From IMG/VR virus record IMGVR_UViG_3300032213_000159, positions 1 through 24,287 of that record: a stretch of DNA of 24,287 nt. One strand, given 5' to 3'. Numbering within the stretch: the stretch's first letter is position 1; each line of letters opens with the position of its first letter. This document shows, in pieces, positions 2,243 to 23,024 of the stretch. The stretch is from a virus. A program made the translations under genes and the position numbers. The notes under the pieces are model-generated. The model saw only the letters and a list, made by a program, of their open reading frames with translations. It did not search any database and was not told where the DNA came from.

Positions 2243-3394
2243 ATGGAAGTAAGCTTACAGACGAACAAGATATTCGACATCCTCACAGATAGCGATAAGC
2301 GCATAACGGTGATGCAAGGTGGAAGTCGAAGCGGGAAAACTTACAATATACTTATCTGGTTCATTATCAAGCTATTGCAGGAGGATGGCAAAACCCTTAC
2401 TATAGTTAGGCAATCACTTCCATCCATCAAGGGTACGGTTCTCCGTGATTTCATTGATATCCTCTCCCGCATGGAGATTTACTCTGAAGACAACCACAAC
2501 AAAACTGACCAGATATATAGCTTGAATGGGAATATCATTGAGTTTGTGTCTGCTGATCAACCTCAGAAGATTCGTGGACGCGCTCGTGACTACCTGTTTT
2601 GCAATGAGGCGAACGAATTAACATATGAGGCGTGGATGCAGCTGATTATGCGTACTTCTGGTAAGATAGTGATTGACTACAACCCTTCTGACCTATCATC
2701 TTGGATCTACGATGATGTAATACCCAGAACTGATGCGGACTTTTATATAACCACGTTCCGTGATAACCCATTCCTTCCCCCCGAGCTTATTGCGGAGTTG
2801 GAGAGGTTGAAGGATGCTGACCCGAATTATTGGCAGATTTATGGTCTGGGTGAAAGGGGTCTCTCTCAGGACTTAATCTATTCGCATTGGAGAACAACTG
2901 AGCAGATGGTGGACGATGATGAAGGTGAGGTGGTGTATGGGTTGGACTTCGGGTTTAATGTGCCAACGGCATTGGTCAAGGTTGTCTTCCACGAAGGAAA
3001 CGCTTATTGTAAGGAAATGCTATACGAAACCAAGCTCACCACTGAGGACTTGGTAGACCGCTTGAAGACTTTAAATATCAGCCCGTATGACGATTTGTAC
3101 TGCGATGCTGCCGAGCCAAAGACGATAGAGGCACTTGTCAGGAGTGGGTTTAATGCCAAGCCAGCTAACAAAGATGTTACTGAGGGAATTAGGACTGTAA
3201 AAGCCACTCCGTTGTTTATATTAAATGAAAGTGTAAATTTGTTGAAAGAAATCAAAAATTATCGGTGGAAAACCGATAGAAATGGAAATAAATTAGATAT
3301 GCCCGTAAAATTTGGCGATCATATCCTTGATGCCTTACGATATGGGATTTATTCCAAAATAACAATTCCCAAGGTGACTTGGGGAGCAATTTAA
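2243..3394 (+). CDS. terL: Terminase large subunit, ATPase and nuclease (383 aa)
   Basis: This is the DNA-packaging motor and headful nuclease. The ATPase half shows a Walker A motif (GGSRSGKT, residues 26-33) and a Walker B-like segment (DYLFCNEANE, about 116-125) with the catalytic glutamate following. The RNase H-like nuclease half shows the expected three acidic clusters: GLDFGFN (Asp235), YCDAAEPK (Asp288) and the C-terminal GDHILDALRYG (Asp359, Asp363). This arrangement is typical of the Terminase_3/PBSX-like family, in which about 380-430 residues is usual, so the protein is complete. It acts at the portal vertex of the procapsid. Its stop lies five bases before the portal start, indicating cotranscription. 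The start is the first ATG, preceded by an AT-rich leader and no Shine-Dalgarno sequence. Confidence 0.97.
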   Translation: MEVSLQTNKIFDILTDSDKRITVMQGGSRSGKTYNILIWFIIKLLQEDGKTLTIVRQSLPSIKGTVLRDFIDILSRMEIYSEDNHNKTDQIYSLNGNIIEFVSADQPQKIRGRARDYLFCNEANELTYEAWMQLIMRTSGKIVIDYNPSDLSSWIYDDVIPRTDADFYITTFRDNPFLPPELIAELERLKDADPNYWQIYGLGERGLSQDLIYSHWRTTEQMVDDDEGEVVYGLDFGFNVPTALVKVVFHEGNAYCKEMLYETKLTTEDLVDRLKTLNISPYDDLYCDAAEPKTIEALVRSGFNAKPANKDVTEGIRTVKATPLFILNESVNLLKEIKNYRWKTDRNGNKLDMPVKFGDHILDALRYGIYSKITIPKVTWGAI

Positions 3395-4895: not shown

Positions 4896-5726
4896 ATGAA
4901 CGCAATGCAGCGCAGCGATTATTGGCTCAAGATGGAGCGGATGCGGAGGGTAGTGGAGCGTAAGTATACGCCCATCATGACCGAGGTGTTGCTGAAGGAG
5001 TTCGATAGCTTCGCCAAGAGTGTTAAACGTGATGGGCCAAGTGCAGCGATGAGTGGATTGGGAGCGGTGGTGTGGGATACAAAGATAATGTCGGTGATGA
5101 GTGATATGTATAGAGAGGTGGCGGTGCAGTTCAGCAATAGTGCGTATAGGGCAGTGGGGATTGAGAGCAGGAAGGCGTATAATCCGTTTAAGCTGAATAG
5201 CACTTTTCTTGCGGAGATCATGCGGTATCTGGCTCAGTACGGGTTTTACATCGTGGCTTTTATAACGCAAACGACTAAAAAGAAGTTAATTAGCCTAGTA
5301 ACTGCTGCGATGGGTATAGGAGCTAGTGTGGATGACATAGTGAATCTTATTGTAAGCAAGGAGATGGGCGAATATGCTAGGATGAGGGCGAGGATGATAA
5401 TCAGGACAGAGGTGGTGAGAGCTAGCAATTACAGCGTGTCTATGGGGGCCACAGGGCATCCCTTTCAAGTGGACAAGATGTGGGTGGCTATGCGGGATGC
5501 GAGGACGAGGAGGATACCTAAAGACCAATATGACCATTGGGAAATGGACGGGCAAGTAAGACCAATTGATGAACCTTTCCAGAGCTTTGACAAGTTAGGT
5601 CGGGTGGTGTTGGCAGATATGCCTGGCGACCCCAAAGCACCTAAAGGATTTTTAATAAATTGCAGGTGTACGGTTGCGTATGTGCCGAGTAGGGATGCGA
5701 ATGGTAGATTAATAATGAAATTATAG
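4896..5726 (+). CDS. MuF-like head morphogenesis protein (276 aa)
   Basis: The C-terminal half carries the signature of the phage Mu F-like (SPP1 gp7) family. It includes an Arg-Thr-Glu helix (MIIRTEVVRASN, about 167-178), then KMWVAMRDARTR, HWEMDGQ, the loop MPGDPKAPKG, and the closing INCRCTVAYV (about 254-262) with its paired cysteines. Proteins of this family associate with the portal inside the procapsid and are needed for head assembly or DNA ejection. The N-terminal half is helical and basic. No extra toxin or effector domain follows the MuF domain. The ATG at 4896 is the first possible start because TGA at 4890 closes the frame. The 56 bases after the portal hold no gene. Confidence 0.92.
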   Translation: MNAMQRSDYWLKMERMRRVVERKYTPIMTEVLLKEFDSFAKSVKRDGPSAAMSGLGAVVWDTKIMSVMSDMYREVAVQFSNSAYRAVGIESRKAYNPFKLNSTFLAEIMRYLAQYGFYIVAFITQTTKKKLISLVTAAMGIGASVDDIVNLIVSKEMGEYARMRARMIIRTEVVRASNYSVSMGATGHPFQVDKMWVAMRDARTRRIPKDQYDHWEMDGQVRPIDEPFQSFDKLGRVVLADMPGDPKAPKGFLINCRCTVAYVPSRDANGRLIMKL

Positions 5727-5728
5727 AT

Positions 5729-6880
5729 ATGCCAATATACGAATGTAGCGGAGGCAAATATAGGATAGGTAATGGTGAGTGTGTTTACACGAGCAGAAGC
5801 AATGCCGAGAGTGCTTACCGAGCCTATTTGGCTGATTTGGATGAGGAATATGAAGATGACCACAGGAATGAAAAAGCGGAGACGTACAATGATTATCCGG
5901 AGGCGGCAACAAATAATGCCAAGCGTGCGATAAAGTATAAAGAGGAAAACGGGTCTTCTTGCGGAACGTCAGTAGGTTGGACACGAGCAAGACAACTTGC
6001 GAATAGAGAGAGCTTGTCAAGAGCCACCATTGCAAGAATGGCATCTTTTAAAAGGCATCAGCAGAATAAGGATGTGCCTTATGATGAGGGATGTGGAGGA
6101 ATCATGTGGGATGCATGGGGAGGTGATGCAGGGGTCAATTGGGCGATAAGAAAATTGGATCAAATAGATAACAAAAATAAGAGTATGATTTACACATATA
6201 AGGCTGCAAGGCTTGAGTTTAAGGATGTGGACAGCAAGAAAATGACCGTGACTGGTTACTTCTCTAAGTTTGGCAATGTGGATAGTGATGGGGACATAAT
6301 GATGCCAGGAGCATTTAAGCGTAGCATTGCTGATTGGGGGCCGGATGGCAAGCAGAGAATTAAGCACCTTATGAACCACAGACCCGATATGCCTCTTGGT
6401 AGGTTATCAGTTTTGAAGGAGGATAGCTACGGGTTATATTACGAGAGTGATTTAGTAAAGACAACATTTGGTATGGACTTTATTAAGATGGCCGAAGGCG
6501 GGATAATAACAGAACACTCAATTGGGTTCAATACCCTGACAGAAGCCAAAGGTTCTATGGGAAATGAGATAAAGGATGTCAAATTGTTCGAGGGTTCTTC
6601 CCTGACGGCTTGGGGTGCGAATATGGACACGCCATTCCTTGGATTTAAGTCAGAAATGGACATAAACGAACTTAAGCAAGAAATTCGTATTTTTGAAAAG
6701 TTTATACGCAATACCGATGCATCTGATCATGTAATCGATTTGTGTGTAATTAAAATTAGGCAATTAGCACAAGCGGTCGAGAGATTAAGTAGCACGAAGG
6801 CAACAGTAAATGAGCCGGAGCAGCCAAAAGTTGACGAGATGCTTGAGAAAAGTTTAATATCTATTCTCAAACAGTTTTAA
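5729..6880 (+). CDS. Prohead protease (HK97/S78-like) with extra N-terminal domain (383 aa)
   Basis: Residues from about 152 on form a U35/S78-type prohead protease. It has a typical opening (YKAARLEFKDVDSKKMTVTG), a substrate-strand motif (FGNVDSDGDIMMPGAF), the catalytic histidine in LMNHRPDMPLG (His217) and the catalytic serine in TEHSIGF (Ser264). It cleaves the capsid delta domain and itself during maturation. In front lies an additional module. Residues 1-35 are a short aromatic/cysteine segment (YECSGGKYRIGNGECVY). Residues 55-147 form a helical domain with SSCGTSVG, RARQLANRESLS and GCGGIMWDAWGGDAG. I remember this domain as recurring in phage head proteins of Bacteroidota, without known function. 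The protein is therefore about twice the size of a minimal S78 protease. It starts two bases after the MuF-like stop. Confidence 0.92.
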   Translation: MPIYECSGGKYRIGNGECVYTSRSNAESAYRAYLADLDEEYEDDHRNEKAETYNDYPEAATNNAKRAIKYKEENGSSCGTSVGWTRARQLANRESLSRATIARMASFKRHQQNKDVPYDEGCGGIMWDAWGGDAGVNWAIRKLDQIDNKNKSMIYTYKAARLEFKDVDSKKMTVTGYFSKFGNVDSDGDIMMPGAFKRSIADWGPDGKQRIKHLMNHRPDMPLGRLSVLKEDSYGLYYESDLVKTTFGMDFIKMAEGGIITEHSIGFNTLTEAKGSMGNEIKDVKLFEGSSLTAWGANMDTPFLGFKSEMDINELKQEIRIFEKFIRNTDASDHVIDLCVIKIRQLAQAVERLSSTKATVNEPEQPKVDEMLEKSLISILKQF

Positions 6881-6889
6881 AATCAACAA

Positions 6890-8059
6890 ATGGAAAATTT
6901 AAAAGAGTTCCAAGCTGCTCTGGAACTTAAAATGAACGAGCAAAAACAAGAGGTGGCTGCTGCTACCGAGAAGGCTGCAAAGTCCTTCGAAAGCAAAGTT
7001 GAGCAAATCAACGAAGAGATGCAAAAGGCTAACAAGACTGCCATTGAGGCTCTTGAGCAAGTTAAAGAAGCTAAGGCTGCATTCGGTAAGATTGCTGCTA
7101 AAGCTGAAAGCAGGATTTCAATGTCTTACAATGACCACATCAATTCTATCAAGTCTGAAATAGCCGCTGGTATTGAGAAGGGTTATGATCAGATTAAAGA
7201 AGCTGTTCGTGGTGATGGTAAAGGTTTTAGCTATGAGCTTGATCAAAAAGCCGTAGGTGTAATGACAACCGGTAACAACCTTACAGGTTCAGTTTACACT
7301 TCTTATGTGGACAATCCATTCCTGAGAGCTTATGTGAATCCACATTTGCGTTCAGTGTTCAACATCGTTCCTGTTTCTACCGGTTCAGTATCTTTCCCAA
7401 GGGGTAATACTCCAGTAGGTGAAGGTTCTTTCGGTAAGCAAACTGAAGGTTCTGATAAGCCACAGATTGATTATGATGTAACAGTTGTAAACACTGCTTT
7501 GTCATTCATTGCTGGTTATGCTAGGGTTTCTCGTCAGATGATTGATGATCTGCCTTTCTTGCAAGCTTACTTGCAGCAGTCGCTGATTGAAGATTTCCAA
7601 AGAGCTGAAGATACTTATTATCTTAACGCTATCGCATCTTCTGCAACCGCAGGTTCTTCTTCTGGTGCTAATACCGCTGAGAAGTTTATCGATTACGTTG
7701 CACAGCTTGGTTCTGCCAACTGGACTGCTAACCTCGCATTGATAACTCACGCAGGTTGGGCAAGTTTATTGAAGACTAAGCCTGCTGACTACTCAGTACC
7801 TGGTGGAATGACGATTGACAACAATGGTAACATCCGCATCGTAGGTGTACCTATTATACCTCACAGCTTGGTTACTACTAGCAGAATGTATGTGTTGGAT
7901 ACTTCAAAGTTTGCCATTGCCCAACAATCTGGATTGGCTGTAAGGTCAACAGAATTTAACCAAGATGATTTCATAAAGAACCTCATCACCTTTAGATGTG
8001 AGGCTCGTTGTGAACTCCTTCAGTATCAGCCAACTGCTGCTATCTACGGAGCAATCTAA
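6890..8059 (+). CDS. Major capsid protein, HK97 fold (389 aa)
   Basis: The main shell protein. The first ~110 residues are charged and helical (KMNEQKQEVAAATEKAAKSF and following), the expected coiled-coil delta domain that acts as an internal scaffold and is removed by the protease. The remainder resembles the HK97-type capsid family, with segments such as NPFLRAYVNPHLRSVFNIVP, a glycine-rich E-loop region, ARVSRQMIDDLPFLQAYL and SLIEDFQRAEDTYYLNA. A terminal domain follows with VGVPIIPHSLV and ITFRCEARCELLQYQPTAA. Size is typical, and no separate scaffold gene is present. The gene is followed within nine bases by a strong terminator, as expected for the most highly expressed structural gene. 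Confidence 0.95.
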   Translation: MENLKEFQAALELKMNEQKQEVAAATEKAAKSFESKVEQINEEMQKANKTAIEALEQVKEAKAAFGKIAAKAESRISMSYNDHINSIKSEIAAGIEKGYDQIKEAVRGDGKGFSYELDQKAVGVMTTGNNLTGSVYTSYVDNPFLRAYVNPHLRSVFNIVPVSTGSVSFPRGNTPVGEGSFGKQTEGSDKPQIDYDVTVVNTALSFIAGYARVSRQMIDDLPFLQAYLQQSLIEDFQRAEDTYYLNAIASSATAGSSSGANTAEKFIDYVAQLGSANWTANLALITHAGWASLLKTKPADYSVPGGMTIDNNGNIRIVGVPIIPHSLVTTSRMYVLDTSKFAIAQQSGLAVRSTEFNQDDFIKNLITFRCEARCELLQYQPTAAIYGAI

Positions 8060-8067
8060 AAATAAAC

Positions 8068-8101
8068 GGGGAGAGGAGGGACAGCTCTCCCCACTTTTTT
8101 T
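8068..8101 (+). terminator. Rho-independent terminator after the capsid gene
   Basis: GGGGAGAG (8068-8075) pairs with CTCTCCCC (8085-8092) across a nine-base loop. AC and seven T residues (8095-8101) follow. It should end most transcripts of the head genes and make everything downstream depend on read-through or an unseen promoter. The next start codon begins directly after the T run (8102). Confidence 0.9.
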
Positions 8102-8611
8102 ATGCCATACAGCTACGGATATTTTAAGCAAGAGTATTTCAACCATCTATTTGACAATTTCAAAATAGACATTGAGATATTAGATGTAGGGCCAGGTGCA
8201 GGGACTTATGGTAATCTATTGAATCAAGACTTTCAGTTTATTGATTGCATAGAGATTCATAAGCCTTACCGATCACAATTCCTGCTTGACAAGATATATC
8301 GGAATGTATTTATTGGCAATGTCCTAGAGTTTGACTACGCTTATTATGACTACATCATCCTTGGTGATGTGTTGGAGCATATGAGCGTTGATGATGCTCA
8401 AAAACTGCTCTTTGATATAACAGATAAAAATATCTACTGCATGGCTGCGGTGCCGTATAAGATGCCGCAAGGTGCTGTTGGAGGCAATGTGTATGAAACA
8501 CATTTGCAGGATGATTTGACTGTTGAAAACTTTACTGACAGATACCCTATGATGCGAGGCCTATTTCGGAATAGCGAATACGGGTATTATGTAAACTATA
8601 ACTACTTATGA
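8102..8611 (+). CDS. Class I SAM-dependent methyltransferase (169 aa)
   Basis: A small Rossmann-fold methyltransferase. Motif I is ILDVGPGAGTYG (residues 26-37), which binds S-adenosylmethionine. The acidic end of strand 2 is DCIEIH (48-53), and the post-motif segment YDYIILGDVLEHM (82-94) is typical of the Methyltransf_23-like group. Such enzymes often act on sugars or small molecules, but the substrate cannot be read from the sequence. The gene starts immediately after the capsid terminator, with no room for a ribosome-binding site. It ends in an ATGA overlap with the glycosyltransferase, so the two are translationally coupled and probably act in one pathway. It is not a head-assembly gene and looks like inserted cargo. 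At 169 residues it is near the minimum for the fold. Confidence 0.85.
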   Translation: MPYSYGYFKQEYFNHLFDNFKIDIEILDVGPGAGTYGNLLNQDFQFIDCIEIHKPYRSQFLLDKIYRNVFIGNVLEFDYAYYDYIILGDVLEHMSVDDAQKLLFDITDKNIYCMAAVPYKMPQGAVGGNVYETHLQDDLTVENFTDRYPMMRGLFRNSEYGYYVNYNYL

Positions 8612-9582
8612 ACATAGTCGCATCTATCCACTTGTATCATCCAAACCACAACTGCGGTGCGGAAGCAATGATGCATCAAGTATTGAAAAGCTTGCAAAAA
8701 AAAGGACATAATGTTAGAGTTCTTCTAAACCAAGCTAATCATTACAAGATAACTTCTAATTACGTTTTTGATGGGGTGGATGTATTTCCTCCAAACACAA
8801 ATGTGGTAGAAGGATTGTATAACTGGGCCAATGTGATATTTACCCATCTTGATTATACAAGATGGAGCATACATATGGCTGCTATGCACAAAAAGCCTGT
8901 TATGCATTTTATACATAATACTCACTTGTACCCAGAGATTGCAGATGCGGAGAAGACACAATATGTAGTTTACAATTCGCAGTGGGCAAAGGATAAGCTT
9001 AATTATAAGTGGGACAATATGATAATGACACCTCCCGTTGATTGGAGGCATTACGACACGAAGGTTAACACCATGAAAAGTCAGTATGTGACTTTAATAA
9101 ATGTGAATGAGAATAAGGGGGGAAAGATATTTACAGAGATAGCAAGAGCAATGCCTAATAAGCAATTTTTAGGTGTTCTTGGGTCGTATGATGAGCAAGT
9201 AACCACTAATCTGCCTAATTTAAAGTATATTTCAAATACTGTTGACATATTGGATGTGTATAAGCAGACAAGGACTTTACTTATGCCGTCAACATATGAG
9301 AGCTGGGGTCGAACTGCAACGGAGGCAATGTGTAGCGGGATTCCTGTTATAAGCAGTGAGGCTGAAGGGTTAAAAGAGAACTGCGGCAATGCAGGAATTT
9401 ATATAAAAAATAGAAACGATGTCAAAGAATGGGTTGAAGCAATTGCAAAGTTGGATGACGAAAAGACGTACTTCACGGCATCAAAAAAAGCAAAAGCACG
9501 ATCAAGAGAGCATGATCCGAGAGAAACACTTGATAGATTTGAGCTATGGCTCAAAGAAAAAGTTTACAGCTACAAACATTGA
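8608..9582 (+). CDS. Glycosyltransferase, GT-B fold, GT4-like (324 aa)
   Basis: A retaining-type nucleotide-sugar glycosyltransferase judging from its motifs. The N-terminal domain begins MNIVASIHLYHPNHNCGAEA with the glycine-containing acceptor loop. The C-terminal nucleotide-binding domain carries VNENKGGKIFTEIARAMP (about 166-183), LLMPSTYESWGRTATEAMCS with the EX7E pair Glu231/Glu239, and SGIPVISSEAEGLKEN. No signal peptide or membrane segment is seen, so it is cytoplasmic. It overlaps the methyltransferase by four bases (ATGA) and ends two bases before the connector start. Plausible acceptors are virion proteins (neighbouring capsid or tail) or host surface glycans; the sequence does not settle this. 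It is slightly shorter than typical GT4 enzymes but looks intact. Confidence 0.9.
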   Translation: MNIVASIHLYHPNHNCGAEAMMHQVLKSLQKKGHNVRVLLNQANHYKITSNYVFDGVDVFPPNTNVVEGLYNWANVIFTHLDYTRWSIHMAAMHKKPVMHFIHNTHLYPEIADAEKTQYVVYNSQWAKDKLNYKWDNMIMTPPVDWRHYDTKVNTMKSQYVTLINVNENKGGKIFTEIARAMPNKQFLGVLGSYDEQVTTNLPNLKYISNTVDILDVYKQTRTLLMPSTYESWGRTATEAMCSGIPVISSEAEGLKENCGNAGIYIKNRNDVKEWVEAIAKLDDEKTYFTASKKAKARSREHDPRETLDRFELWLKEKVYSYKH

Positions 9583-9584
9583 AC

Positions 9585-10157
9585 ATGAGTATATTGGTCA
9601 ATAGCATATCGGTTATAGCGGATTCATCAGTAGAGCCTGTATCTATCACGGATGCAAGGGATTGGCTGAAGCTCGATACTGCTTACACAGAAGATGATAA
9701 TCTAATTGCAGAGCTTATAACGTCTGCGAGAAAGCATATAGAGAAATTGACTGGAGTTAACTTAGTCAATAAGAGCATGAAAGTGCTTATTGATGTTTAT
9801 GGCCTTCCTCACAACCCTACCTATGTGGTTGACCTTCCTTATGGGCCGGTGGTATGTGTGGATTTGGTTAGACTAAAAGCAGGTATAAATACTTATGATA
9901 CCTTAACTAAAAATACGCACTACGAGTTTATTGGTGGCAAGCTTTGGCTTTACGCTGTTGGTGATTACGAGGTGACTTATACAAGTGGATACGGTGACTG
10001 CCCTGCGGACTTAGAGACCGATATTTTGACCTTAGTTGCTTGGAGCTATGAGAACAGAGGCAAGAAGATGGAAGGGCAAGGAAGGGAAGGATTGCTGCGT
10101 AGCTACCCTAATTGGGATGGCATGAACTATCATCAATATAAAAAAGTAGTTATATAA
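9585..10157 (+). CDS. Head-tail connector protein, gp6-like (190 aa)
   Basis: The product resembles the HK97 gp6/SPP1 gp15 family. It has an N-terminal helical core (EPVSITDARDWLKLD, DDNLIAELITSARKHIEKLTG), then a beta-rich middle and a last helix (LETDILTLVAWSYENRG). These proteins form a ring under the portal that begins the head-tail joint. The frame is open further upstream (from 9546, inside the glycosyltransferase gene), but the ATG at 9585 lies two bases after that gene's stop and gives the conserved beginning, so it is chosen. The stop overlaps the next gene's ATG by one base (TAATG). Confidence 0.88.
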   Translation: MSILVNSISVIADSSVEPVSITDARDWLKLDTAYTEDDNLIAELITSARKHIEKLTGVNLVNKSMKVLIDVYGLPHNPTYVVDLPYGPVVCVDLVRLKAGINTYDTLTKNTHYEFIGGKLWLYAVGDYEVTYTSGYGDCPADLETDILTLVAWSYENRGKKMEGQGREGLLRSYPNWDGMNYHQYKKVVI

Positions 10158-18028: not shown

Positions 18029-18363
18029 GTGAATTTAACTTAAAAAATATCCGCAAAGGAGACACATGGTCGATGGACTTGAAGTTCTGGTCTGATGACT
18101 GCAAGACTACGCCTATCAACGTGTCAACATATAGCTTTAAGCTTGTGGCAAAGAATAGTGCGGGTACTGTTCAGTGGACATGGAATAATGCGGACTTTGT
18201 TGCAGGAGCTACAACCAATGAGAGAATAGTAACGATAAGTGCGGTGACAACGGCAACGTATAATGTAGGCGAGTACAGATATGACTTGCAAGTAACAACA
18301 GCTTCATCTGTGATGACCTACTTAGTGGGTTATGTAAGGGTTGAAGACCAAATCACATCATAA
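18025..18363 (+). CDS. Baseplate Ig-like protein, BppU N-terminal-like (112 aa)
   Basis: A 112-residue all-beta protein beginning MSEFNLKNIRKGDTWSMDLK. It contains the strands YSFKLVAKNSAG, IVTISAVTT and YRYDLQVTTASSVMTYLVGY, and ends in VEDQITS. This resembles the N-terminal Ig-like domain of BppU-type baseplate upper proteins. Such proteins link fibres or receptor-binding proteins to the tail tip. Here the domain stands alone without a fibre part; the fibre is encoded by the next gene. The start forms ATGA with the previous stop, and the end forms TAATG with the next gene. Confidence 0.7.
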   Translation: MSEFNLKNIRKGDTWSMDLKFWSDDCKTTPINVSTYSFKLVAKNSAGTVQWTWNNADFVAGATTNERIVTISAVTTATYNVGEYRYDLQVTTASSVMTYLVGYVRVEDQITS

Positions 18364-20297
18364 TGGTTATAGAGGTAACATTCGATGTCACTGATGTATA
18401 TATAAGTACTACGGTCAGTCCGGTGTATGTTAACGTGAGCTTTGAAGCTCCGTCAAGTGGTGGTGGAACTTGGGGATCAATTACAGGTACCCTATCTAAC
18501 CAAACAGACCTGCAGAATGCATTAAATGCAAAGTACAACAACCCAACGGGAACTACTTCACAATATCTTCGTGGTGATGGCTCTTTGGCTACATTTCCTG
18601 CGATTCCAAGCGGTACGGTCACATCGGTAGGACTTACTATGCCGAGTGCATTTAGTGTTGCCAATTCGCCTATTACGAGTTCGGGGACACTTGCGGTAAC
18701 GGCAACGGGAGACACAACACAATACATTGCAGGTGATGGTTCATTGGTAGCGTTTCCGATTACGGGACAAGCAGGTACGTTGGTTAGAGAGGTTCGTAAT
18801 GTTACGGGTGCTACATTAACTAAAGGAACGGTTGTTTACATAAATGGTGCGAGTGGCAATAAGCCAACTGTGGCGAAGGCATTAGCAACGGGAGATGCGA
18901 CATCTGCGCAGACATTTGGATTGATACAAGCAGATATAGCGAATAATTCAAACGGATATTTAGTAGCCTTTGGTGATTTGGATGGGTTGAATACTTCGGC
19001 ATTTGCGGAGGGAGTGCAGTTGTATTTATCATCAACAACGGCAGGTGGTTATACAAGTACCAAGCAATACGCTCCTAATCATTTGGTTTACATCGGTGTA
19101 GTAACGAGGCAGCACATTAACCAAGGGCGTATTGAGGTTCGTATACAGAACGGCTACGAAATGGATGAACTGCATGACGTGGCTGCACAGACACCATCTA
19201 ACAATCATGGCTTATTCTACAATAGCACCAATTCACTTTGGGAAAATAAGTCAATCGCAACGGCATTAGGGTACACCCCTGCAAACGCAGGAACGACATT
19301 AACGATTAACGGGGTGACTTACGATTTGAGTACATCACGCACTTGGACTATTTCAACAGGTATTTCGGGAAGCGGTGCGAGTGGGCAGGTATCCTATTGG
19401 AATGGTACGACATCACAGGCGGGGTCGAATAATCTGTTTTGGGATGCGACAAACTCACGGTTAGGGATTGGGACTAATGCACCGAGTACAACATTAGATG
19501 TAAGAGGTAAAGCAAGGATACAAGCATCGGGTAATTGTGAATTGGACTTTGTTGATGGTGCAAACTCCATGCGGGTAGCAATGGGTTCAACACAAGGTTT
19601 TATTGGTACTTTATCTTCACATCCTTTTGGTTTTTTTACTGCTGCAACCGAAAGGGCAAGAATAAGCACTAATGGAAATCTACTTATAAACTCAACCTCC
19701 GACTCAGGCGAACGCCTTCAGGTGACGGGTGATGTGAAGATAGTTAATGGAACTTTGACTTCAACTCACTTAAAAATAGGTACAAGTTTAAATGTTGGTA
19801 GTTTTAGCACCCCTGCAATAGCTTTTAACACTACTACTGGTATATATTCAGATACTAATAGAATATTTTTTGTATCAGCAGGAGCTTTTGCAGGTGGGTT
19901 TTCTTCAGAAGGTTTTGTTGGGACTACTGCTTGGGTTAATGCTTCTTCTGGGGCTAATGATTTAAATACTCCAAAATTAGGAGGTTATAGACTTAATGCA
20001 CAAGGTCTTTCAAGTGGCTTAGGAGGTAATTCAGCAGGTGATGTATCAATAGCATCAAATAACCTTGCAAGATTTGTTGTAAAATATACAGGTGAAATTG
20101 GTATAGGAACTTCATCACCAAACGCATCAGCAATAACACAAATAGATTCCACCACTAAAGGTTTTCTACCCCCACGAATGACCACAACCCAAAAGAACGC
20201 TATTGCATCGCCAACAGCAGGACTTGTGGTGTATGACACAACTTTAGCCAAACTATGCGTATATACTACCGCATGGGAAACAATAACATCTATATAA
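18363..20297 (+). CDS. Large tail fibre / receptor-binding protein 1 (644 aa)
   Basis: A Thr/Ser/Gly/Asn-rich fibre. The N-terminus (VTFDVTDVYISTTVSPVYVN) probably attaches to the baseplate. It is followed by WGSITGTLSNQTDLQNALNA, two copies of a TT-x-QY-xx-GDGSL-xx-FP unit, and a SGTVTSVGL...ANSPITSSGTLAV unit also present in the second fibre. A globular part (about 140-290) follows. The C-terminal half holds repeated IGIGT-x-x-P-type units. The last ~60 residues (TTKGFLPPRMTTTQKNAI, then GLVVYDTT) form an end domain common in fibres of Bacteroidota phages. It is the likely receptor-binding fibre or its shaft. It starts with a one-base overlap with the baseplate Ig-like gene. Confidence 0.82.
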   Translation: MVIEVTFDVTDVYISTTVSPVYVNVSFEAPSSGGGTWGSITGTLSNQTDLQNALNAKYNNPTGTTSQYLRGDGSLATFPAIPSGTVTSVGLTMPSAFSVANSPITSSGTLAVTATGDTTQYIAGDGSLVAFPITGQAGTLVREVRNVTGATLTKGTVVYINGASGNKPTVAKALATGDATSAQTFGLIQADIANNSNGYLVAFGDLDGLNTSAFAEGVQLYLSSTTAGGYTSTKQYAPNHLVYIGVVTRQHINQGRIEVRIQNGYEMDELHDVAAQTPSNNHGLFYNSTNSLWENKSIATALGYTPANAGTTLTINGVTYDLSTSRTWTISTGISGSGASGQVSYWNGTTSQAGSNNLFWDATNSRLGIGTNAPSTTLDVRGKARIQASGNCELDFVDGANSMRVAMGSTQGFIGTLSSHPFGFFTAATERARISTNGNLLINSTSDSGERLQVTGDVKIVNGTLTSTHLKIGTSLNVGSFSTPAIAFNTTTGIYSDTNRIFFVSAGAFAGGFSSEGFVGTTAWVNASSGANDLNTPKLGGYRLNAQGLSSGLGGNSAGDVSIASNNLARFVVKYTGEIGIGTSSPNASAITQIDSTTKGFLPPRMTTTQKNAIASPTAGLVVYDTTLAKLCVYTTAWETITSI

Positions 20298-20307
20298 AAT
20301 TCAAAAT

Positions 20308-20601
20308 ATGAAACAAATAACCCCCTTCCCAGTTTGGCACAATGGTGCAAACGTTGATGCCGAGTATTTCGCAATGAAGTCTATTGACGATAACCTTGAA
20401 GATTCTGCGCTGTTTTATTGGCAGCTATTTGCCAAAACGCAAGACCCCGAAGGTAATGACGTGGTTGGTCAGGCATTGTCTCAAGGTAATCTTACGATGA
20501 GCGGTCAAGACTACTCCGATTGGGGCGACCAATCAGGTAACGACATAAATGGTTGGGCATATACTTGGGCAGCTAATCTGTTGAACATAACTCTTATATG
20601 A
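20308..20601 (+). CDS. Small protein between two fibre genes (97 aa)
   Basis: A 97-residue acidic protein beginning MKQITPFPVWHNGANVDAEY and ending WGDQ...WAYTWAANLLNITL. Its Trp-rich C-terminal half, with GNLTMSGQDYSDW, matches my memory of a small uncharacterised family found among tail-fibre genes of Bacteroidota phages. Its placement between the fibres, overlapping the second by four bases (ATGA), suggests a fibre-assembly partner or a component of the tip. No membrane or signal sequence is present. Confidence 0.7.
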   Translation: MKQITPFPVWHNGANVDAEYFAMKSIDDNLEDSALFYWQLFAKTQDPEGNDVVGQALSQGNLTMSGQDYSDWGDQSGNDINGWAYTWAANLLNITLI

Positions 20602-23024
20602 GGATAAACAAATCCTTAATTACTTATCAACCTTCGTCAGGAGCGGGTAGCGGTACGGTGACATCTGTGGCGCTATCTGCTCCAACGGGTTTTACTGTAA
20701 GTGGATCACCTATAACGAGTGCAGGAACACTTGCCTTATCCTTTACCACAGGTTATGGCATTCCTCCGCTGATGACGGGCAACTCTGGCAGATTCCTCAC
20801 CACCAATGGCACAACGATGTCATGGGTGAACATTGCGGGAACTGATGTGACGGGTGCTGCTATTAGCACATCAAATGATACAAATATCCTCATCACTGCA
20901 AGTGGCAATACTACCAATGCTCTCCTCCGTACACTTACATTAACAACTGGGTGGACTGGTCAATTAGCAGTAGCAAGGGGTGGAACGGGTGCAAATTCTT
21001 TACAAGGTGTTCTTATAGGTAACTTGACCGCTCCCGTAACTGCGGTGACGGGTATAGGTGGTCAGCTATTACGAGCCAACCCTTCTACGGGTGTTTATGA
21101 GTTTTTTACTCCTGTTTATATGTCAAATCCGATGACAACACTCGGAGACATCATATATGGCAATGCAGCGGGTGCGCCAACAAGATTGGCTGCAAATGGT
21201 ACTGCAAACAATATGTACCTACGCTCCGTGAGTGGTGGTATTCCTTCATGGGCATCAATTGCAGGTGGAGATATTACAGGTGCAGCATTAACTGAAGTAG
21301 ATGATACAAATGTAACTTGTACACTTGGCGGTACGCCTGCCAATGCCTTATTGCGCTCAGTATCTCTGACTTTCGGTTGGACTGGGCAGCTTTCTGTGCC
21401 AAGAGGGGGGACGGGTGTTGCAACTTTGACGGGAGTAGTTATTGGTAACGGAACGGGGGTAATGACAGGCGTAGCAGGAACGGCTGACCAATTACTACGC
21501 AGAAACTCCGCAAATACTGCATACGAGTTCTTCACACCTACTTTTTTATCTAACCCGATGACCTCATTGGGTGATATTATTTACGGAAACGCAGCAGGTG
21601 CGCCATTGAGGTTGGGAGCGAATGCTACCAGCACAAATAAATTCTTGCGCAGCGTTTCAGGTGGTACACCTTCATGGGAAGAGATAAGTGGATTTCTAAC
21701 GGGAAGTGGTACAACCAATTATGTTCCTAAATGGACTCCATCAGGAACAGTTTTAGGCAATAGTCAGATATATGACAATGGTACATCGGTAGGCATAGGG
21801 ACTGCATCACCGAATACTAAACTTCATACAACTGGTAGCCTTACCATTGATGATGTACTATATTTACAACGGGGTTCGGGTTCTTTTTACCTTCCTGTGT
21901 TAAATTTTTGGAATGGTACGGGGTCACCACTTGCAGGTACTAAAGGTGATATTTTAGCGATAGGTAATACGGGCGGTGATGCTCTTGTATTTGTTACCAA
22001 TGCATCAGAGAGGGCGCGGTTTACATCGGCAGGCAATTTTGGAATCAATACACCAACACCAACGCACAAACTTGAAGTTATTGGTGTAATTTCAGCAGGA
22101 AATGCATCGGCTACAAGCGGTTCGATAATTTTGCAGGATACTTACTCCGCAGGCCATCTTGGCAACATTGGAACAATGTTTAGTAGTGGTAATTTTATGT
22201 TAGGCTATGCGGTAACTCCTTCAACATCTTCTGCTACTTCTTTTTTGAGTTCTGCGTTTGTTAGTGGTGTTGATTTTTGGAGGTCTTCAATAACACTTGG
22301 TGAAAATGTTAGCATTTACACGGGTGCTGCGCAGAGTGTTGCCGTAGGTTCATCAGTCACAATGAGTGAAAGGTTAAGGCTACTTAATAGCGGTCAATTA
22401 AGGCTTTTAAACTACACATCAACATCATCTTTCAGCGGTCTTACTGTTGGTTTGCTTGGCTTTACAAGTACGGGTGCAATTACTACATACACAATCCCAG
22501 GTGGTGTGTCGGGTACTCAGGATTACTTAGCTAAGTTTGATTCAACGGGGATTGCGGTCGGGAACTCACGGATAGTAGATAATGGTACAAACTTCCTATT
22601 TAACTCCGCATCATCATACGTTACAGGTCTTAATCTCATAGGTGATATCGGTATCCAATCAGCATCAAGTCAGGCATCTTCAATACTGATGAGGAGCAAC
22701 CAAACGCCAACGAGCGGAACATCAATCGGAATAATTGATTCCTATGCAATAACTACAGGTTCAACTTATACACTGTCGGCAGGAATAGATTTTAGAGCCT
22801 CGCAGAACTGGAACTCCACTTCAGCAGGTACTGATATCTTTGTTCAGACGGCACCTGATAATACTATTGCCCCTGCAGACATGTTTGTTTTTTTAAATAA
22901 TGGGGCGGTTCGGTTTATCGGTAGGACGTCAAACCCCATTGGTGCAGCGGCAGGAACGATGTATTATAATAGTTCAGCAAATAATATGCGGTATTATAAC
23001 GGAACGAGTTGGATAACTTTTTAA
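20598..23024 (+). CDS. Large tail fibre / receptor-binding protein 2 (808 aa)
   Basis: A second, longer fibre with the same low-complexity, Gly/Ser/Thr-rich style. It starts with a SGTVTSVAL...SPITSAGTLAL unit like the one in fibre 1. Residues 75-358 are two tandem 142-residue repeats, each containing GWTGQL, RGGTG, LGDIIYGNAAGAP and LRSVSGG. The central and C-terminal part holds IGIGT-xx-P and NFGINTPTPTHKLEVIG units, then Ser-rich beta-repeats, and ends GTMYYNSSANNMRYYNGTSW, a tip-type sequence. It may be a shaft extender or an alternative receptor-binding fibre. The start is part of an ATGA overlap with the small gene before it. No terminator is evident after its stop. Confidence 0.8.
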   Translation: MRINKSLITYQPSSGAGSGTVTSVALSAPTGFTVSGSPITSAGTLALSFTTGYGIPPLMTGNSGRFLTTNGTTMSWVNIAGTDVTGAAISTSNDTNILITASGNTTNALLRTLTLTTGWTGQLAVARGGTGANSLQGVLIGNLTAPVTAVTGIGGQLLRANPSTGVYEFFTPVYMSNPMTTLGDIIYGNAAGAPTRLAANGTANNMYLRSVSGGIPSWASIAGGDITGAALTEVDDTNVTCTLGGTPANALLRSVSLTFGWTGQLSVPRGGTGVATLTGVVIGNGTGVMTGVAGTADQLLRRNSANTAYEFFTPTFLSNPMTSLGDIIYGNAAGAPLRLGANATSTNKFLRSVSGGTPSWEEISGFLTGSGTTNYVPKWTPSGTVLGNSQIYDNGTSVGIGTASPNTKLHTTGSLTIDDVLYLQRGSGSFYLPVLNFWNGTGSPLAGTKGDILAIGNTGGDALVFVTNASERARFTSAGNFGINTPTPTHKLEVIGVISAGNASATSGSIILQDTYSAGHLGNIGTMFSSGNFMLGYAVTPSTSSATSFLSSAFVSGVDFWRSSITLGENVSIYTGAAQSVAVGSSVTMSERLRLLNSGQLRLLNYTSTSSFSGLTVGLLGFTSTGAITTYTIPGGVSGTQDYLAKFDSTGIAVGNSRIVDNGTNFLFNSASSYVTGLNLIGDIGIQSASSQASSILMRSNQTPTSGTSIGIIDSYAITTGSTYTLSAGIDFRASQNWNSTSAGTDIFVQTAPDNTIAPADMFVFLNNGAVRFIGRTSNPIGAAAGTMYYNSSANNMRYYNGTSWITF
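20820..21245 (+). repeat. Fibre tandem repeat unit 1 (426 bases)
   Basis: The first of two head-to-tail units within the second fibre gene, coding residues 75-216 from the conserved Ser-Trp to just before the next one. The two units have the same length (426 bases). Protein similarity is strong in LGDIIYGNAAGAP, GWTGQL and LRSVSGG, but codons differ: in IIYGNAAGAP six of ten codons differ only at synonymous positions. Confidence 0.85.
21246..21671 (+). repeat. Fibre tandem repeat unit 2 (426 bases)
   Basis: Second copy of the 142-residue fibre unit, coding residues 217-358. The following residues (SWEEISGFLTG, from 21672) look like the start of a third unit that breaks off. Drifted codons with conserved protein sequence point to an old duplication kept by selection. 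Confidence 0.85.

Follow-up and report, generated by a model that had tools for sequence, protein, structure and literature searches.

The locus analyzed here raises the question of what a methyltransferase (MT) and a glycosyltransferase (GT) do among the head genes of a siphophage. The window, that is the whole stretch of DNA under analysis, is a virus record of 24,287 bases with siphophage head and tail genes of the Bacteroidota type. Genes of the terminase large subunit TerL (start at 2243), portal (start at 3379), MuF (start at 4896) and prohead protease (5729-6880) are followed on the plus strand by the gene of an HK97-type major capsid protein of 389 aa (MCP, 6890..8059; Phage_capsid 3.8e-16, phrog_10 9.1e-32), the genes of the MT (8102..8611, plus strand, 169 aa) and the GT (8608..9582, plus strand, 324 aa), and the head-tail connector gene (9585..10157, plus strand; Phage_connect_1 9.4e-7, phrog_442 3.6e-18), the start of which was set at 9585 instead of 9546 given in a mechanical ORF list. 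A gp10-like gene (start at 10157) and the genes of the tail terminator (10560), tail tube (10998) and tape measure (12076) come next; the portal and tape measure were labelled by gene size, place and reading of the sequence. The sequence-only reading stated that the two enzyme genes interrupt the order of capsid gene and connector, and the flanks bear this out, MCP and connector being the fixed neighbours of the pair on the left and on the right, respectively. Bacteroidota phages head the list of MCP relatives in the phage collection, the window protein being 30.8% identical to the MCP of Cellulophaga phage phi10:1 and 30.2% identical to that of Flavobacterium phage 11b. A nucleotide search of the same collection with the MT-GT locus gave no match, and an Rfam scan of the window gave none either.

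The GT was recognized by the Glycos_transf_1 profile of Pfam (9.4e-14, 51.7 bits against a cutoff of 26.4), and its structure model (pLDDT 95.0) had its best PDB matches among MshA, PglA, BshA and PimA, matching also the chlorovirus glycosyltransferase 3oy2. In an alignment of 40 relatives, residues E231-x7-E239, K170 and G171 were invariant, E-x7-E being what we take to be the signature of the GT4 family. The profile score above the cutoff, the GT-B fold and this motif together place the enzyme in GT4. A scan of 14 long related contigs detected exactly one GT4 per contig. The protein belongs to the phage family phrog_26352 (1.6e-69), which is listed without function and would obtain a likely one if the glycan role proposed below is correct.

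The MT remained below the Pfam cutoff (Methyltransf_23, 16.3 bits against 27), which the corresponding protein of a related contig (L036) clears with 46.7 bits. A profile built from 20 relatives matched the solved methyltransferase 3cc8 (E 3.3e-8), the structure matches of the AlphaFold2 model (pLDDT 84.9) were methyltransferase folds, and two motifs, D-x-G-x-G-x-G at residues 28-34 and GD..EH at residues 88-93, were invariant in the 20 relatives. With its Rossmann-type methyltransferase fold and glycine-rich SAM motif, the protein is a class I SAM-dependent methyltransferase. A fold of this kind does not reveal the substrate; the MT is proposed to be a sugar O-methyltransferase.

To place the pair among relatives, viral contigs were scanned with the GT query, the MT query, an MCP alignment (best 80 of 401 matches) and a GT alignment (best 80 of 402), which yielded 166 distinct contigs after removal of 19 loci repeating a contig. 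Conservation beside the capsid gene, the check proposed for the pair in the sequence-only reading, was evident for the GT: the order MCP, GT, connector was found in all 138 distinct viral contigs holding all three genes. The GT was present in 164 of the 166 contigs, the other two (L056 and L123) ending 40 and 80 nt behind the MCP gene, and in 78 of the 80 contigs selected by MCP (best 80 of 401 relatives, all close, at least 76% identical), a set unbiased by the GT query. Two loci from metagenome-assembled genomes (MAGs) labelled Taibaiella (L188) and Saprospiraceae (L189) showed the MCP, a cassette of GT25/GTx/GT11 type, the GT and the connector in the same order. A scan with divergent MCPs (best 80 of 197, one already counted) added 79 further loci, in 52 of which, some belonging to contigs included above, the MCP was followed by the GT and/or the enzymes of the interval preceding it, while 22 had the connector behind the MCP with no enzyme match and 5 ended too early. 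One of the 22 (L305) encodes an MCP 100% identical to that of phi10:1, and in the cultured phages phi10:1, 11b, Arctus_1 and snusmum, whose MCPs are 23-31% identical to that of the window, no enzyme is annotated between these two genes. The 22 enzyme-free loci of 79 indicate that the module is characteristic of one part of the capsid family and, together with the cultured relatives, that phages of this capsid type can do without it.

The same GT family was also sought in cellular genomes, where 54 loci were obtained: the two Bacteroidota MAGs, 42 loci in Actinobacteria and 10 weak matches in other bacteria (L231-L238, L240, L241). An upstream ORF was obtained in 35 of the 42 Actinobacteria loci, and in seven of these it encoded a major head protein, of either the PF05065 MCP family (L192, L195, L196, L208) or the P22-type coat proteins (L190, L193, L197). 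In L196, a second GT copy lies directly upstream and the next ORF, a capsid gene, was counted instead; in L190 and L197, an additional ORF separates the coat protein and the GT. The remaining 28 upstream ORFs had no head-protein match, some being beta-propeller proteins, although the calls are crude in these high-GC loci and some of the 28 may be miscalled. Many Actinobacteria loci of the GT family lie outside phage surroundings. A non-structural context of relatives, which the sequence-only reading named as a finding against a role in the particle, was thus encountered for Streptomyces relatives of the GT (L203, L205, L213 and others, L205 adjoining an NHL/beta-propeller repeat protein) and not in viral contigs, where the GT family never occurred outside the capsid locus.

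The GT, not the MT, is the constant element of the locus. The interval from a conserved hairpin behind the MCP gene to the GT start codon, referred to as the slot, contained in the 164 contigs an MT of the window type (68 contigs), a protein designated GT25a (43), an FkbM-type methyltransferase (36), a GT25b+GTx+GT11 set (8), GT25a together with FkbM (4) or another methyltransferase (1), and nothing in four contigs starting at the GT. Labels were given by similarity to representatives that had been compared with Pfam (FkbM 1.3e-7 and 2.5e-8; Glyco_transf_25 2.2e-6; Glyco_transf_11 6.1e-14). The name GT25a derives from a match between its profile and that of GT25b (probability 100, E 3e-43), as the protein gave no Pfam match in the closer relatives of the window and no match to solved structures; GTx (L030:4545-5252) and a third cassette protein (L188:6363-6965, L325:10243-10866) had no Pfam match. 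In 152 of 153 contigs, the MCP-GT interval was wholly taken up by genes of the MT, FkbM methyltransferase, GT25, GTx, GT11 or HNH types, with no unexplained stretch above 150 nt, the single exception having 169 nt left. HNH endonuclease genes were found in the slot of eight contigs (L024, L066, L079, L082, L084, L087, L094, L174), and homing by these endonucleases could help to drive the exchange of slot alleles. The cassettes of divergent relatives are longer, 5-6 kb in L254:7139-12877 and L325:7232-13027, where the capsid-linked genes comprise an FkbM-type methyltransferase, GT25, GT11 and several unnamed small genes.

The distribution of slot states over the MCP tree (132 rows, i.e., 131 contigs and the window) required at least 28 changes, compared with a least possible number of 5 and a mean of 64.9 upon shuffling; the value of 28 is approximate, because the tree was built by a quick method and contains long branches (L036, L021, L032). 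The GT tree gave 29 changes, and the starred branches of the MCP tree alone force at least 8, 10 and 6 changes for MT, GT25a and FkbM, respectively. Contigs L062 and L064 encode identical MCPs and carry GT25a and the FkbM-type enzyme, respectively, which means that the slot is not decided by the MCP sequence. Contigs L151 (MT) and L165 (GT25a) are 93.7% identical up to base 5497, the MT starting at 5495, and become alignable again from base 6000, the GT starting at 6001. Pairwise alignment revealed borders as exact in L140/L150 and L151/L154, and borders rougher on one side in L062/L064, L088/L084 and L085/L079. Slot swaps run from start codon to start codon. The earlier description of a coupled MT-GT pair therefore holds for the overlap of the two genes and fails for the fixed pair; the pair as an obligatory unit was rejected, since the GT stays and its partner is swapped across relatives.

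The left border of the slot is a terminator-like hairpin with a T-run (8068..8101, plus strand). It lies between the MCP stop codon and the MT start, is GC-rich, and possesses a perfect 8-bp stem (GGGGAGAG/CTCTCCCC, 8068-8075/8085-8092), while the T-run extends to 8101 and touches the MT start codon. Under one fixed rule applied to all stretches, 129 of 131 contigs showed such a hairpin behind the MCP gene, compared with a single case among 338 control stretches taken from behind GT, connector or protease genes. Probably it acts as an attenuator that sets capsid output above enzyme output. At the other end of the slot, the ATGA overlap noted in the sequence-only reading was confirmed at 8608..8611 (plus strand), where the GT start and the MT stop share bases, which suggests that the translation of the two genes may be coupled. 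Spacing of this overlap type, in which the final base of the last sense codon of the slot gene also belongs to the GT start as in the window, was found for MT in 32 of 68 contigs, for GT25a in 19 of 43 and for FkbM in 8 of 36, being the commonest spacing for MT and GT25a and the second commonest for FkbM. As it recurs for three unrelated slot enzymes, translational coupling to one and the same GT seems to apply to each slot allele.

Glycosylation of the virion has been established in a few mycobacteriophages, where it is usually discussed as a shield from mammalian antibodies; Freeman et al. reportedly described it in 2023 for Che8 (gp108-110), Corndog (gp38) and Myrna. In papers citing that study, Che8 gp110 and Corndog gp38 are given as essential for capsid glycosylation (PMC12363180), and the glycans are located on the capsid and tail tube (PMC12363180), namely at their C-termini (PMC12619734). 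Of the Che8 proteins, gp110 was matched by the Glyco_transf_25 profile, and in gp108 a GT2 domain is joined to one of the TylF/Methyltransf_24 type; like this system, the window encodes a glycosyltransferase with an associated methyltransferase. The window itself has no GT25-type enzyme, GT25a and GT25b being alleles of sibling phages, and the likeness in this respect is one of Che8 gp110 to the distantly related GT25b (hhalign probability 92, E 6.5e-7). A direct link of GT25a to the gp110 family was not supported, at an hhalign probability of 4, the connection running only through GT25b. The glycosyltransferase genes of Che8 are located at the right end of its genome, away from the capsid gene, and a capsid-adjacent location is consequently not needed for virion glycosylation. 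Wildflower, which by its gp110 homologue is presumably a Corndog-like mycobacteriophage of cluster O, carries an O-methyltransferase (gp33), two glycosyltransferases (gp34 and gp35) and GT25 (gp36) between the portal and the capsid protease/MCP, in a run that resembles the present one in its place among head genes. The earlier remark that glycosyltransferases stand beside structural genes in some mycobacteriophages is correct in this respect. The differences are that the methyltransferases of Che8 gp108 and Wildflower gp33 are of the TylF type, a family other than that of the window MT, and that the locus studied here belongs to Bacteroidota-type phages, has a single GT4 rather than a GT2-type enzyme as its core, holds strictly to the MCP-slot-GT-connector position and exchanges unrelated enzymes in the slot at exact borders.

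The MT has its own connection with these phages. A search of the phage collection returned six records, four of mycobacteriophages, one of a freshwater actinophage (DSL-LC01) and one unannotated; the annotated phage homologues are few and mostly found in mycobacteriophage glycosylation clusters. Among the three records inspected, Phrappuccino gp145 lies directly behind the glycosyltransferases gp142-144, prophiGD91-2 gp78 between the glycosyltransferases gp73-75 and gp80, adjoining terminase, and the DSL-LC01 homologue near a glycosyltransferase and a UDP-galactopyranose mutase.

A system of similar working is found in chlorovirus PBCV-1 (A064R, A061L), in which viral glycosyltransferases are described as building the capsid glycan, viral methyltransferases as O-methylating its terminal sugar and antigenic variants as arising from loss of A064R functions (PMC9614988). 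The combination of a glycosyltransferase and an O-methyltransferase finishing a capsid glycan would be a likeness in working and not in descent, PBCV-1 being a eukaryotic virus with an unrelated capsid and a larger glycan. To our knowledge, no fixed core with a swappable slot is known in PBCV-1. Among the annotated phages of the collection, a GT homologue was detected in Streptomyces phage TurkishDelight alone, whose gp20 (29.5% identity, E 9e-34) similarly lies between the MCP and the major tail protein; however, it consists of two GT4 domains in one protein, is separated from the MCP gene by two genes of unknown function and comes from a phage of an actinobacterial host. Serotype-converting gtr clusters of temperate phages likewise comprise sugar-altering glycosyltransferases with alleles exchanged between phages; their enzymes are membrane-linked and adjoin integrase/att, in contrast to the soluble-type enzymes in the head operon described here. 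As none of the 14 long related contigs, which may be fragments, gave a Phage_integrase match, lysogenic serotype conversion was rejected. No description of the MCP-slot-GT-connector arrangement was found in open-licence PMC literature.

Considering the position of the genes, the exclusivity of the slot, its swapping, the coupling and the association with proven virion glycosylation, the best reading is that MT and GT constitute one allele of a module glycosylating the virion, with head or tail proteins as acceptors, to which we assign a probability of about 0.7. The modification of the particle suggested in the sequence-only reading is thereby supported indirectly, by capsid linkage in every relative that could be checked, by slot partners all of sugar-tailoring types and by MT homologues within glycosyltransferase clusters. 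Building on the observed genes, folds, gene order, conservation, start-codon-exact swaps and hairpin, we infer a sugar as the substrate of the MT and other slot enzymes, a virion protein as the acceptor and a biological benefit. Late in infection, attenuation of transcription at the hairpin behind the MCP gene would leave the MCP in excess, and the downstream enzymes would be produced in smaller, coupled amounts. The GT4 enzyme would then transfer a sugar to a virion protein, or build one there, with a head protein as the most probable acceptor and presumably a host sugar nucleotide as the donor, and the slot enzyme would cap or extend this glycan, in the window through O-methylation of a sugar by the MT. 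In sister phages, the finishing would be performed by the FkbM-type methyltransferase, the GT25-like glycosyltransferase or the GT25+GTx+GT11 set. The kind of system would be a known one, virion glycosylation; a fixed core combined with a swappable tailoring allele would be new to it.

Which virion protein is the acceptor is a separate matter. The glycan may be attached to a tail, neck or decoration protein, the place beside the MCP reflecting late timing only; this form of the reading is a possibility we consider rather doubtful. The glycans reported on the tail tube as well as on the capsid of mycobacteriophages (PMC12619734, PMC12363180) agree with it, as do the identical MCPs paired with different slot enzymes and the ORF between coat protein and GT in the two actinobacterial loci mentioned above, while the GT being always nearest to MCP and connector speaks against it. 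A conserved Asn-Leu-Thr of the MCP was considered as a glycosylation site and dropped, because the motif is just as invariant in the capsid proteins of phi10:1 and 11b, two phages for which no enzymes are annotated at this place.

The host surface, named earlier as the alternative target, is the main rival, though less likely than the particle. Under this explanation, which we regard as unlikely, the GT and the slot enzyme would act late in infection on the host cell and modify its O-antigen, capsule or glycolipid; the change would keep other phages from adsorbing or prevent progeny from being lost to debris, and the alleles would match the surface sugars of the hosts. The GT4, GT25, GT11 and FkbM families are indeed usual in LPS and capsule clusters, the modelled GT resembles the lipid- or small-molecule-acceptor enzymes PimA, PglA and MshA, and in L151/L165, the sole pair compared downstream, the tail-fibre stretch differs along with the slot, as expected if alleles track the host surface. 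One published source proposes only DNA or cell-wall roles for such phage glycosyltransferases, and another proposes these along with virion glycosylation. Against the host surface stand the constant position among head genes instead of an early or lysogeny region, the lack of an integrase match in all 14 long contigs, a slot that is filled by tailoring enzymes and HNH genes and leaves no space for membrane genes such as a flippase, the occurrence of the GT family beside unrelated capsids in Actinobacteria, whose envelope differs, and the MT homologues within mycobacteriophage glycosyltransferase clusters.

An insertion hotspot behind the MCP terminator, collecting 'morons' of no common function, would account for the HNH endonucleases in the slot of eight contigs and for the start-codon-exact replacement; yet no member of the group has lost the GT, the two contigs that end behind the MCP aside, and slot content is so uniform (152 of 153) that a generic moron slot was rejected as improbable. 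Hypermodification of DNA, with the GT glycosylating a modified base and the MT methylating DNA, corresponds to the assumption often made for phage glycosyltransferases; it was rejected as the least probable explanation, as no base hydroxymethylase of the thymidylate-synthase-like kind was matched in any of the 14 long contigs (possibly fragments), each of which has exactly one GT4, the other slot enzymes FkbM, GT11 and GT25 do not act on DNA, the MT had no DNA-methylase match in the Pfam scan, and relatives have a separate cytosine-methylase-like gene elsewhere, recognized by reading of translations.

Returning to glycosylation of the virion, a swap of the slot gene would give the particle a new outermost glycan with the capsid protein unchanged, akin to a switch of particle serotype. 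We put forward only tentatively, as somewhat less probable than not, that a whole group of aquatic phages keeps an obligatory capsid-linked GT4 and, by recombination from start codon to start codon within the stretch bounded by the conserved hairpin and the GT gene, exchanges the glycan-finishing enzyme. If so, phages with the same capsid protein would differ in their outer sugars, and antigenic variation of phage capsids would exist without mammalian immunity as its driver, the selection coming from sugar-binding factors of hosts, grazers or the matrix. In a large environmental group of phages, the capsid locus regularly includes a gene set comparable to that of the few glycosylated mycobacteriophages, its tailoring gene being repeatedly swapped with the capsid unchanged. 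Confirmation of its role would pose the question of what in the environment recognizes the exterior of the phage head, would provide natural allele pairs (same capsid, different slot) for testing, and would make a GT4 gene between capsid and connector a marker of glycosylated phages in sequence data.

Several minor observations were made along the way. The cytosine-methylase-like gene, as read from translations, lies in the early region at L246:12505-13632, where it is split into two ORFs, and at L249:5386-6552. Approximately 800 bases interrupt the TerL match of L048:5-1609 and that of L049:3-1742, suggesting an intron, an intein or an endonuclease insertion; the MCP match of L049:4923-5956 consists of two overlapping pieces, which suggests a frameshift in the contig or the gene. 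In the window, the prohead protease (5729-6880) has approximately 150 additional N-terminal residues ahead of the protease domain, with a phrog_2859 match at residues 48-141, and two adjoining long tail-fibre-like genes (18363-20297 and 20598-23024) have a repeated Gly/Ser/Thr-rich segment in common close to their starts, in the manner of duplicated modules.
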